From assembly GCF_003627995.1 (NCBI RefSeq), contig NZ_CP032707.1:2842501-2906500 (forward strand): DNA of 64,000 nt, given 5' to 3'. Positions 32,699-37,590 of the stretch are shown here, one piece after another. Position 1 is the first letter of the stretch; each line of letters begins with the position of its first letter. The position numbers were made by a program, and so were the translations under genes. The notes beneath the pieces are model-generated. The model was not told where the DNA came from. It saw only the letters and a list, made by a program, of their open reading frames with translations, and searched no databases. This DNA is from Brevundimonas naejangsanensis (GTDB lineage Bacteria; Pseudomonadota; Alphaproteobacteria; Caulobacterales; Caulobacteraceae).

Positions 32699-33064
32699 CT
32701 AGAAGCTGCGCCCGTCCACACGCTGGGCGGTCCAGTCCCAGGGCTCCACGTCGGTCAGGGTGCGCACGTTGATCGCCGCCACCTCGCTGCCGTCGGGCGC
32801 CACGCCGTAGCCGAAGGGCTGGACGCCGCAGGTCTTGCAAAAGCGATGGTCGATCTTGTGCCGGTTGAAGAAGTAGGAGGTCGTCTCGCCCTCCCCCTTG
32901 GTCAGGCGGAAGGCCGAGCGGGGCGCGAAGGCCAGCACGAATCCCTTGCGGTAACAATGGGTGCAGTTGCACTCGACCAGGCCTTCCAGCCCGACCTCGA
33001 CCTCATAGGCCACCGCGCCGCAGTGGCACGATCCCTTGTGCGTTACGGTTTCAGCTTGGCTCAT
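32699..33064 (-). CDS. GFA-family (Mss4-like) zinc protein
   Basis: 121 codons from the ATG at 33064, which overlaps the dnaE stop (TGATG). The GSCHCGAVAYEVEV start, the CNCTHCYRKG pair and the CKTCGVQPFGYG motif are the zinc-binding cysteine sets of the GFA domain. Members were named after glutathione-dependent formaldehyde-activating enzyme, but the function of most is unknown. The frame runs further upstream only as a shadow of dnaE. I assign family, not substrate. Confidence 0.85.
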   Translation of the reverse strand: MSQAETVTHKGSCHCGAVAYEVEVGLEGLVECNCTHCYRKGFVLAFAPRSAFRLTKGEGETTSYFFNRHKIDHRFCKTCGVQPFGYGVAPDGSEVAAINVRTLTDVEPWDWTAQRVDGRSF

Positions 33065-36000
33065 CAGGCGTCCTCCAGCATCACCACCCCCGGCGCCGAC
33101 TTCAACGCGCCGCGCAGCGCCGCGTCTAGCCGGTATCGTCCGGGCAGCTTGATTTCCACCTCGGTGCGGCCGCCCAGGGTCGCCTGCAGCCAGACCTCGC
33201 CGCCCTTGCCCTGCGCCCGCGCCCGATCCAGCCGCGCCTTCAGCGCCTCGGCGTCCGCCGACTGGGCCGACAGGACCACGCGCAGGCCGATCTGGGCGTC
33301 GTCCAGCAGCACGTCCATGCGGCTGGCGTCGTCGCCGAAGAAGCGCACCTCCCCGTCCGCCGCCTTGGCCCGCACCTTGACCAGGACCGACGCCCCCACC
33401 TCCAGAATCTCGCGGCAACGCCGCAGTTGCTCGGGCGGGAACAGGCATTCGAACTCGCCCGTCGGATCCGAGAAGGTGACGAAGGCGAACTTCTCGCCGG
33501 TGCGGGCGCTGGCCCGTTCCTGACGGCGCCGCACGACCCCGGCCATCTGGAAGGCTTCGTGCCCGGCCTCGGCCAGGCCTTGCGCCTCGGCCACGAAGGT
33601 CACGCGCTTGCGCTTCAGCGCCGGCGTCAGCTCCTCCAGCGGGTGGCCGGACAGGTAGAAACCGACGGCGTAAAGCTCCTGATCCAGCTTGTCCGGTCCG
33701 GCCCAGGGCTCCACGCTCTTCAGGCGCGGCCGGGCGGCGGCGGCCTGATCGGCGCCGAACAGGCTGACCTGGGACGAGGCGCGCTCGGCGGCCACGCTCT
33801 GGCAATAGGCGATCAGCACGTCGGCCTGCTCGAACAGCTGGCGGCGATTAGGATGGAGGCTGTCGAAAGCCCCGGCCCGCGCCAGGCCTTCCAGGGCCCG
33901 CTTGTTGACCGCCTTGGGATCGACCCGCTCCAGGAAGTCGAAGATGTCGGCGAAGGGGCCGCCCGCCTCGCGCACCTCCACCACGTGCTTCATCGCCTCC
34001 AGACCGACGTTGCGGATGGCGCCGAGCGCATAGAGGACGCTGCCCTGCCCGTCCTTCCACGCCACGTCGAAATCGGCGGACGAGCGGTTGATGTCCGGCG
34101 CCAGAACCGGAACCTCGAAACGACGGCAGTCCTGGTAGAAGACCGCCAGCTTGTCGGTGTTCGATAGATCGAGGCTCATCGAGGCGGCGAAGAACTCGAC
34201 CGGATGATTGGCCTTCAACCAGCCCGTCTGGAACGAGATCAGGGCATAGGCCGCCGCGTGCGACTTGTTGAAGCCGTAGCCCGCGAACTTGGCCACCAGG
34301 TCGAAGATGGAGCCGGACTGAGACTCCGGAACCCCCTTCTCGGACGCGCCCTTGACGAAGCGGAGGCGCTGGAAGTCCATCTCCTCCTTCTTCTTCTTGC
34401 CCATCGCGCGACGCAGCAGGTCGGCCTCGCCCAGGCTGTAGCCCGCCAGGATCTGGGCGATCTTCATCACCTGTTCCTGGTAGATGATGACGCCGTAGGT
34501 CTCGGTCAGCACCTCCTTCAGGCTGGGGTGCAGGTAGTCCACCTCGGCCCGGCCGAACTTCCGGTCGATGTAGGTATCGATCATCTCCATCGGCCCGGGC
34601 CGGTAGAGGGAGATCAGGGCGGTAATTTCCTCGATCGAGCCGCAGCGCATCTTGCGCAGGGTGTCGCGCATGCCCTGGGATTCCAGCTGGAACACCCCGA
34701 CCGTCTGGCCCGAGGCCATCAGTTCATAGGTCCTGGGATCGTCCAGCGGCAGCAGGTTCCATTCGGGCGCCGCGCCGCGCCGTTCCAGATAGCCCTTGGC
34801 CCGGTCCAGCACCGTCAGCGTCTTCAGGCCCAGGAAGTCGAACTTCACCAGGCCCGCCGGCTCGACCCACTTCATGTTGAACTGGCTGGCGGGGATGGTG
34901 GAGCGCGGGTCCTGATACAGGGGCACCAGCTCCGTCAGCGGCCGGTCGCCGATGACGATGCCCGCCGCGTGGGTCGAGGCGTTGCGATAGAGCCCTTCCA
35001 GCTCCAGCGCCGTCTCCAGCAGCGCCTTGACCGAGGCCTCGGCGTCACGCGCCTCGCGCAGGCGCGGCTCCAGGTCGATGGCCTGGGCCAGGGTCACGGG
35101 ATTGGCGGGGTTGGCCGGCACCATCTTGGCCAGGCGGTCCACCTGGCCCAGCGGCATCTGGAGCACGCGGCCCACGTCGCGCAGCACGGCCCGCGCCTGC
35201 AGGGTGCCGAAGGTGATGATCTGGGCCACCCGGTCCTTGCCGTAGTGGTCCTGGACGTAGTCGATGACCTCTTCGCGCCGCTCCTGACAGAAGTCGATGT
35301 CGAAGTCGGGCATCGACACGCGTTCCGGGTTCAGGAAGCGCTCGAACAGCAGGCCGAACCGCAAGGGATCCAGGTCGGTGATGGTCAGCGACCAGGCGAC
35401 CAGGGAGCCGGCCCCCGAGCCCCGCCCCGGCCCCACCGGGATGTCATGCAGCTTGGCCCATTTGATGAAGTCGGCAACGATCAGGAAGTAGCCGGGGAAC
35501 CCCATCTGCTGGATGATCCCCACCTCCCACTCGAGGCGGTCCCAATAGTCCTGCTCGGGCGCGTAAGCCTTATTCTTCTCCAGCCGCGCCTTCAGCCCCT
35601 CGCGCGCCTGGTGCGCCAGTTCGTCGGCCTCGGAACGGCCCGCGCCGGTGTCGAAGCGCGGCAGGATCGGCTTGTGCGTCTTGACCAGGAAGGCGCAGCG
35701 GCGGGCGATCTCGATGGTGTTGTCGCAGGCCTCGGGCAGGTCGGCGAACAGCTCGCGCATCGCCTCGGCCGACTTGAACCAGTGCTCGCCGGTGACGCGG
35801 CGGCGGTCCTCCTGGCCCGTGAAGGCGCCGTCGGAGATGCACAGAAGCGCGTCATGCGACTTCGCCTGGGCCGCCTTGGCGTAATAGACGTCGTTGGTCG
35901 CGACGAGCGGGACATCGTTGGCGTAGGCCCATTCGACCAGGCCGCCCTCGGCCTCGATCTCGCTGGACAGGCCGTGGCGCTGCAGTTCGACATAGAAGCG

Positions 36001-36534
36001 GTCGCCGAACACCCGCTTCATCTCGGCCAGGGCGGCGGCGGCCTCGGCGGGTTTCTTCTGCACGAACAGCGGGTCGATCGGGCCGTCCGGACCGCCTGAC
36101 AGCAGGATCAGCCCCTCGGACTTTTCCACAACCTTTCCCCAGGGCACGCCCGGCTCGGCCATCTCGCCCGCGTCGAGGTAGGCGGCGGACGACAGGGCGC
36201 ACAGATTGAGCCAGCCCCGCTCGTTCTGGGCCAGCAGGACGACCGTCGGGGTCTTGGCCCAGCGCGGCGCCGCCTGCCCGCCGATGTCGAGCACCGGCAG
36301 GGCGCAGGCGACCAGCGGCTGCACCCCCGCGTCCTTGGTCGTCTGGCTGAACTCCAGCGCGCCGAACAGGTTGGCGCGGTCGGCCACGGCGACGGCGGGC
36401 ATGCCCGCCTCGGCGGCCATCTTGCCGATCTTGCCGGCCTTGATCGCGCCTTCAAGCAAGGAATAGGCGCTGCGGACCCGCAGATGGACAAAGCCCTGAC
36501 TGTTCACCGCATCCGCCAATTGAAAACTCCGCAT
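33064..36534 (-). CDS. dnaE: DNA polymerase III alpha subunit
   Basis: 1156 codons. DnaE is the replicative polymerase. The PHP domain starts at [17 protein letters not shown]. The [14 protein letters not shown] segment and the catalytic [12 protein letters not shown] motif lie near residues 380-420. The fingers domain contains [14 protein letters not shown] and the helix-hairpin-helix/OB-fold region is C-terminal. The start is either the ATG at 36534 or a GTG nine codons in. The sidA candidate lies upstream on the same strand with an 83-base gap. Confidence 0.95.
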
Positions 36535-36617
36535 CGCAGCGCCCGCTCACACGGACGCGCCTCATCATGCAGGGAGTCTGCCGCGCCCTTCAAACCGGGC
36601 GTCGGCACGGCAGCGGG

Positions 36618-36707
36618 TCACGCCACCAGGAAGGCCGCCTGCCAGACCATCCAGACGAAGCCGCCGCAGGACGCAAGCGACAGCAGTTCCCTCACCCAAC
36701 GCGCCAT
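36618..36707 (-). CDS. sidA: SidA-like SOS-induced division inhibitor (29 residues), candidate
   Basis: An ATG at 36707 opens a 29-codon frame ending at TGA 36618, with GGGGA about nine bases before the start. The product has a short basic/acidic N-terminus (MARWVREL) and then one hydrophobic, Trp-containing helix (GGFVWMVWQAAFLVA). Caulobacter SidA is a 29-residue inner-membrane protein made under LexA control that blocks division by binding FtsW. Here the length, topology, LexA-like boxes over the promoter and position beside dnaE all agree; the neighbouring position in Caulobacter is from memory. I could not align the two sequences. Another small membrane protein remains possible. Confidence 0.65.
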   Translation of the reverse strand: MARWVRELLSLASCGGFVWMVWQAAFLVA

Positions 36708-36729
36708 TGATTTTATCCCCAGATCAAAT

Positions 36730-36769
36730 GTTGCCCATTTGTTCTATGTTGCCGATTTGTTCTCGTCAA
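36730..36769 (-). promoter_or_regulatory. Promoter overlapped by two LexA-like boxes
   Basis: On the minus strand, TTGACG (36764-36769) and TAGAAC (36741-36746) are 17 bases apart and 34 bases upstream of the sidA candidate. On the plus strand, GTTG-N7-GTTC occurs twice, at 36730-36744 and 36748-36762, spaced 18 bases apart, with nearly identical centres. The alphaproteobacterial LexA box is GTTC-N7-GTTC, so each box has one mismatch. Both cover the promoter, where a repressor would block RNA polymerase. Confidence 0.6.
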
Positions 36770-36846: not shown

Positions 36847-37590
36847 TCAGTAGGCTTGGCTCTGGGCCGCCCTCTGTTCCAGGTGGCCGTCCTTCAGGGC
36901 GAAGACACGGTCCATGTGGCCCGCCAACTCCATGTTGTGGGTGGCGATCAGGGCGGCGATGCCCGTGGTCTTGGCCCGTTCGCGCAGGGCCTCGAACACC
37001 GCCTGGCTGGTGGCGGGGTCCAGGTTGCCGGTCGGCTCGTCCGCCAGCAGCAGGCGCGGGCTGTTGGCCAGGGCGCGGGCGATGGCGACCCGCTGCTGCT
37101 CGCCGCCGGACAATTGCGCCGGCTGGTGGGTGACGCGCTCGCCCAGCCCGAGGGCGGTCAGGGTCTGGGTCGCGCGCCGACGCGCCTCCCCTTCCCGCAC
37201 GCCCGCGATGCGCATGGGCAGGGCCACATTGTCGAGGGCGTCGAACTCGGGCAGCAGGTGGTGGAACTGATAAACAAAGCCGATGCGGTGCAGGCGCAGC
37301 CGCGTGCGCGCGCGTTCGTCCAGCCCGCCGACGTCCTCGCCGTCGATCAGCACATGGCCGCTGGTCGGCCGCTCCAGCAGGCCCGCCGCGTGCAGCAGGC
37401 TGGACTTGCCCGAGCCTGACGGCCCGATCAGGCCGACGACCTCGCCCGGCATGACGTCCAGGTCAACGCCCTTCAGAACCGTCAGCCCGCCCTGGGCGGT
37501 CGGATAGGTGCGCGTCACCCCGCGCAGCGACAGGATGGCGCCGTTCGTCCCGGCGGCGACGGCGGGCTTCTTCTTCAGCAGCCTATTCAA
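36847..37590 (-). CDS. lolD: Lipoprotein-releasing ABC transporter ATP-binding protein LolD
   Basis: 247 codons. LolD powers release of outer-membrane lipoproteins from the inner membrane. Walker A (GPSGSGKSS), the ABC signature (LSGGEQQRVAIARAL) and Walker B (LLLADEPTGNLD) are complete. The start appears to be a TTG at 37590 inside the last codons of lolC. No better start exists before the ATPase core. The gene pairs with the LolC/E-type permease just upstream. Confidence 0.92.
   Translation of the reverse strand: MNRLLKKKPAVAAGTNGAILSLRGVTRTYPTAQGGLTVLKGVDLDVMPGEVVGLIGPSGSGKSSLLHAAGLLERPTSGHVLIDGEDVGGLDERARTRLRLHRIGFVYQFHHLLPEFDALDNVALPMRIAGVREGEARRRATQTLTALGLGERVTHQPAQLSGGEQQRVAIARALANSPRLLLADEPTGNLDPATSQAVFEALRERAKTTGIAALIATHNMELAGHMDRVFALKDGHLEQRAAQSQAY

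Follow-up and report, generated by a model that had tools for sequence, protein, structure and literature searches.

The founding paper on the division inhibitor SidA is reportedly that of Modell et al. (2011). In Caulobacter crescentus, SidA is described as an SOS-induced inhibitor of cell division that acts on FtsW, and DidA as an SOS-independent inhibitor that binds FtsN; both descriptions come from the portion of PMC4211646 used here. The LexA box of this species is given as GTTCN7GTTC in PMC12700426, the consulted sections of which state that about 97% of SOS promoters have a single box. We met no report of SidA outside Caulobacter in a literature search that was shallow and is therefore no proof, and PMC13384398, in the sections consulted, deals with higX and does not treat sidA in Brevundimonas.

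Here we describe a short reading frame in a 64,000-nucleotide stretch of the Brevundimonas naejangsanensis genome (contig NZ_CP032707.1, positions 2,842,501 to 2,906,500; referred to below as the window); the whole genome is a single contig of 3,002,429 bases. With high probability, this 29-residue frame is a genuine gene, the counterpart of the Caulobacter protein that pauses division after DNA damage. Size, predicted topology, the position before dnaE, a LexA-type promoter, a full-length match to the SidA protein model, and conservation across the family all agree with the identity put forward in the original prediction, which had been made from the bare sequence.

The sidA frame and its conservation before dnaE

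The frame runs uninterrupted from ATG to stop where it had been predicted (Table 1), and its product is MARWVRELLSLASCGGFVWMVWQAAFLVA (translation of 36707..36618, minus strand). Arginines occupy positions 3 and 6 and tryptophans positions 4, 19, and 22, and a hydrophobic run begins at about residue 8 (mean Kyte-Doolittle value of 1.70 over residues 8 to 29); a basic N terminus, a single hydrophobic helix, and a length of about 29 residues are what a SidA orthologue should have, and the window peptide has all three. A Pfam search of the peptide returned no family. The frame lies upstream of dnaE, also as expected of an orthologue and as predicted, with 83 bases between the two genes on the same strand, and the lolD-type ATPase gene on its other side is accompanied by that of an FtsX/MacB-type permease, likewise on the minus strand; the name lolD is a provisional one, given for the position beside this permease. 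A Shine-Dalgarno-like pattern, permissively defined, precedes all 24 same-genus sidA copies. Because 77 frames of at least 25 amino acids overlap a stretch of 9 kb, a short frame alone is no proof of a gene, and this one rises above chance because of its conservation and its promoter.

Table 1. Features of the sidA locus in window coordinates
Feature	Position	Strand	Remarks
dnaE, DNA polymerase III alpha subunit	33064..36534	minus	downstream neighbor; PHP and Pol III alpha domains
sidA-dnaE gap	36534-36618		
sidA	36618..36707	minus	ATG, 29 codons, stop; one hydrophobic helix, N terminus predicted inside
Shine-Dalgarno-like GGGGA	36716..36720	minus	before sidA ATG
LexA-type box 2, GAACAAATGGGCAAC (GTTGCCCATTTGTTC on plus strand)	36730..36744	minus	overlaps proposed -10; 7 of 8
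Proposed -10, TAGAAC	36741..36746	minus	putative; 17-base spacer
LexA-type box 1, GAACAAATCGGCAAC (GTTGCCGATTTGTTC on plus strand)	36748..36762	minus	between proposed promoter hexamers; 7 of 8
Proposed -35, TTGACG	36764..36769	minus	putative assignment
lolD-type ABC transporter ATPase	36847..37590	minus	upstream neighbor

Clear purifying selection is present in only one of the six reading frames of this stretch, that of sidA. For pairs that differ by less than 20% among the 24 copies from the genus, pN/pS was 0.32 in the sidA frame and 1.17, 3.00, 0.84, 2.64, and 0.65 in the other five; over all pairs the sidA value was 0.43. Codon position 2 was the least variable (14 of 26) and position 3 the most (26 of 26).

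We searched for the peptide in 149 Caulobacteraceae genomes at E values up to 10 and found a match in 122, including every one of the 24 same-genus genomes. We examined the loci surrounding these matches (30, a further 91, and that of genome G020) together with dnaE regions sought in the 27 genomes lacking a match, of which 22 loci were used and weak matches to distant DnaE relatives were excluded. Two loci, L198 (G124) and L206 (G043), held stray matches and no dnaE, and they were dropped, leaving 142. A frame of 28 to 31 codons scoring at least 46 against four reference peptides is present in 138 of these, the remaining four scoring 19 to 22; the script's choice of start favored lengths near 29, which accounts in part for how narrow the length range is. 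With genome G124, which was found on inspection to carry the frame, a sidA-like frame precedes dnaE in 139 of the 149 genomes; conservation in relatives had been set beforehand as the test on which the prediction could fall. Seven genomes (G001, G023, G043, G044, G050, G100, and G105) were not assessable, because their dnaE start either escaped detection or lay at a contig edge, and in three (G016, G017, and G031) the frame is absent. These three, at loci L228, L225, and L223, respectively, belong to two genera and have the dnaE start with no sidA-like frame ahead of it and no LexA-type box in the scanned stretch; they are possible losses of sidA that would offer a useful contrast for FtsW.

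The gene order lolD-sidA-dnaE also occurs in a record named Caulobacter vibrioides OR37 (10 of 80 loci were compared with the window). Of the 111 copies that are 29 residues long, 109 retain Phe17, 109 Val18, and 104 Ser13. The single Trp-containing helix that had been likened to that of SidA is indeed predicted, but its tryptophan is not diagnostic: Trp19 is found in 101 of these 111 copies and missing from 10. When alignment A2 was searched across the order at an E value of 0.01, 51 of 249 genomes matched, all of them Caulobacteraceae; this figure applies to copies within reach of the search and does not establish absence outside the family.

The record L292, titled Brevundimonas vancanneytii (a MAG), has a SidA resembling that of Caulobacter and a dnaE 74% identical to that of the window, no closer than those of the Caulobacter records compared, and its label may be wrong. 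In one Caulobacter genome, another SidA-like frame, 37 codons long (L388; G022:C3:315099-315185, minus strand), begins MTRLIRETLAFAAAATFVWAVC and has no LexA-type box on its own strand within 250 bases upstream.

The NCBIfam equivalog model for SidA (NF033228, div_inhib_SidA) aligns with all of residues 1 to 29 of the window peptide at an E value of 8e-6. The likeness to SidA extends over the full length, yet the score of 25.7 bits misses the curated cutoff of 35 bits, and for this reason the peptide is not filed under the equivalog as the model stands. Four of the 24 same-genus copies (the window's and those of G002, G024, and G083) were scored, and none reaches 35 bits. Ten peptides from the position before dnaE in different genomes gave 72.7, 72.3, 64.9, 45.7, and 44.3 bits above the cutoff and 33.5, 26.5, 25.7 (the window), 23.5, and 18.3 bits below it, with the top score belonging to the OR37 record; because all ten sit before dnaE, we read the low scores as divergence within one orthologous group. 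A class-wide search with the model found one of 385 genomes over the cutoff, G020, of the Caulobacteraceae. Matches outside the family were taken for chance, since the best of them (E value of 0.006) covered only part of the model and 9 of 14 control genomes also matched at E values up to 10, one of them above the cutoff.

The sidA promoter and LexA-type boxes

The LexA-like boxes claimed for the promoter are there, two in number when scored against the consensus GTTCN7GTTC. Of the 24 same-genus promoters, 19 retain TTGAC, box 1, TAGAAC, and box 2 in this order, which would place box 1 within the promoter spacer and have box 2 cover the -10 hexamer; a consensus promoter scan gives different hexamers (TGGGCA/TAAAAT, 36737-36710, 9 of 12). 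The paired box pattern, which was drawn up after the boxes had been sighted, has a single exact match in the 3.0-Mb genome, the sidA promoter, and with up to two mismatches it has six genome matches versus three for the reversed control.

Across the family, we scanned 110 bases upstream of 138 sidA-like frames for GAACN7GAAC with at most one mismatch. Every promoter, that of the window included, has at least one box, 130 have at least two, and 122 have a pair 16 to 18 bases apart, although the 138 share descent and are not independent trials. Of 13,800 single-base shuffles, 1,084 had at least one box, 78 at least two, and 1 such a pair, and 2,764 control windows from the same loci gave 92, 0, and 0. 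At least one perfect box occurs in 90 of the 138 promoters; the window's has none, and LexA may bind weakly there, since each of its boxes ends in CAAC, one half-site being changed from GAAC. In one lineage (g14; L218, L219, L220, L226, and L380), three LexA-type boxes 18 to 19 bases apart precede the sidA-like frame, and the peptides are without Trp19.

What we had less reason to expect is a tandem operator throughout the family, an unusual arrangement given the share of single-box SOS promoters cited above from part of PMC12700426. A tentative reading, which we consider possible and rather doubtful as a whole, is that the sidA promoter is a multi-operator LexA switch throughout the family, with two and sometimes three boxes in a register of about 18 bases over the spacer and -10 hexamer; cooperative repression would then set a threshold, division would be blocked only after heavy damage, and, at loci with a short sidA-dnaE gap, SOS would also raise the level of the replicative polymerase subunit. 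The estimated gap ranges from -52 to 319 bases across the genus and is short in many relatives, with the caveat that dnaE starts are uncertain and that one value (-917) is a failure of the measure, for which reason no count was drawn. A scan of the gap found no terminator-like site, and a hairpin considered between the two genes was dropped because the fold is unremarkable (z score of -0.67). Where the gap is short, dnaE may be transcribed partly from the SOS promoter.

Elsewhere in the window's genome, perfect boxes precede ssb, recA, uvrA, lexA, a comM-type gene, and mraZ, and the GTTCN7GTTC boxes of lexA, ssb, recA, and uvrA lie about 20 to 110 bases before the gene. These were drawn from 20 stretches, mostly A+T-rich ones, hand-picked among the box matches in the genome (Pfam was run on proteins from 7, and 6 were named) and do not amount to a regulon count. 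Single box matches are weak evidence, because GTTSN7GTTC has 122 matches in the genome and 60 in its reversed control. The mraZ box (L098; G000:C1:386084-386098) is perfect and lies at least 135 bases upstream of the frame, so SOS control may extend in this genome to a division gene.

Proposed mechanism and alternative readings

We consider it likely, with a probability of roughly 85%, that the window gene is an orthologue of Caulobacter SidA that is repressed by LexA, made during the SOS response, and able to hold FtsW/FtsI and thereby division. In undamaged cells, LexA on the two boxes over the promoter spacer and -10 hexamer would keep the gene off, a first step that the sequence supports. 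By analogy with Caulobacter, RecA would trigger LexA self-cleavage and the promoter would open; the 29-residue peptide would be made and inserted into the inner membrane with its N terminus inside, where it would join the FtsW/FtsI septal wall-synthesis complex and hold it inactive, and the cell would grow without dividing until repair lowers the signal. We infer from orthology that LexA binds, that damage induces the gene, that the peptide enters the membrane and contacts FtsW, and that division is blocked; for damage induction, FtsW binding, and the block itself the presumed behavior is carried over from the Caulobacter literature. An FtsW-directed, damage-induced checkpoint in this organism, which the original prediction put forward conditionally, would likewise follow by analogy. 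A comparison of FtsW between genomes pointed neither way on the target, and for the FtsW suppressor positions the C. crescentus numbering failed to transfer at 145 and 246 to the Caulobacter FtsW of G022.

The peptide could instead belong to the SidA lineage and be an SOS-induced membrane peptide that has moved in this genus to a new target, such as FtsN, FtsI, or some other envelope protein, with the locus and LexA control kept. Its second half does differ from that of Caulobacter copies (position 22 is Trp in the window peptide and Cys in most of them, and 31-residue forms make up 9 of the 138 copies), and the DidA precedent in the cited part of PMC4211646 shows that a second Caulobacter inhibitor has FtsN as its partner. 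The core formed by Ser13, Phe17, and Val18 is nonetheless kept, and we regard such a shift as unlikely.

Two further readings give the peptide no role at all. A leader or regulatory peptide, with dnaE tuned as ribosomes translate the short frame or as polymerase passes through it, would suit a frame standing right before dnaE in 139 of 149 genomes, often at a short distance; against this, selection acts on the amino acids, the estimated gap varies widely within the genus, and the gap has neither a terminator-like site nor a remarkable fold, all of which make this reading quite improbable. That the frame is open by chance next to genuine LexA boxes serving dnaE is scarcely credible: short frames are common in G+C-rich DNA, and frame +2 here stays open as well in 23 of the 24 copies from this genus, but frame +2 has a pN/pS of 3.00 against 0.32 for sidA, and conservation is at the protein level.

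Implications and comparison with known division inhibitors

Taken as an orthologue of SidA, the window gene brings into a known system a related genus, tested copies of which score under the usual annotation threshold. The extension to a further organism, foreseen should the prediction be confirmed, reaches only within the family of Caulobacter. Our results suggest that the SidA checkpoint is of long standing in the Caulobacteraceae and not peculiar to Caulobacter, and that annotation with the current SidA model misses this genus, all four scored copies falling below its cutoff. The 139 dnaE-linked copies, some without the central Trp, offer a readout of the residues that matter for the proposed contact with FtsW, and the conserved tandem operators provide a single promoter at which the role of having several LexA boxes can be tested.

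DidA, as described in the cited part of PMC4211646, likewise halts division after DNA damage and is a small membrane peptide; in contrast to that SOS-independent inhibitor, the window gene has tandem LexA-type boxes. SulA of Escherichia coli, according to the same part of that source, is an SOS-induced division inhibitor too but acts on FtsZ, whereas the window product is a membrane peptide. YneA of Bacillus subtilis and SosA of Staphylococcus aureus are described, in the portions of the literature consulted, as SOS-induced division inhibitors, with YneA reported to act on FtsW; these come from Gram-positive bacteria, and the likeness is an analogy by description and not by sequence. The comparison with C. 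crescentus SidA was made through NF033228 and the peptide of the OR37 record rather than the C. crescentus NA1000 sequence. The window peptide differs from SidA in its score below the curated cutoff, in having Trp at positions 4 and 22, and in the imperfection of both LexA boxes; it is like SidA in its 29 residues, its one hydrophobic helix, its LexA-type promoter, its full-length alignment with NF033228, and its place before dnaE, as in the C. vibrioides OR37 record.
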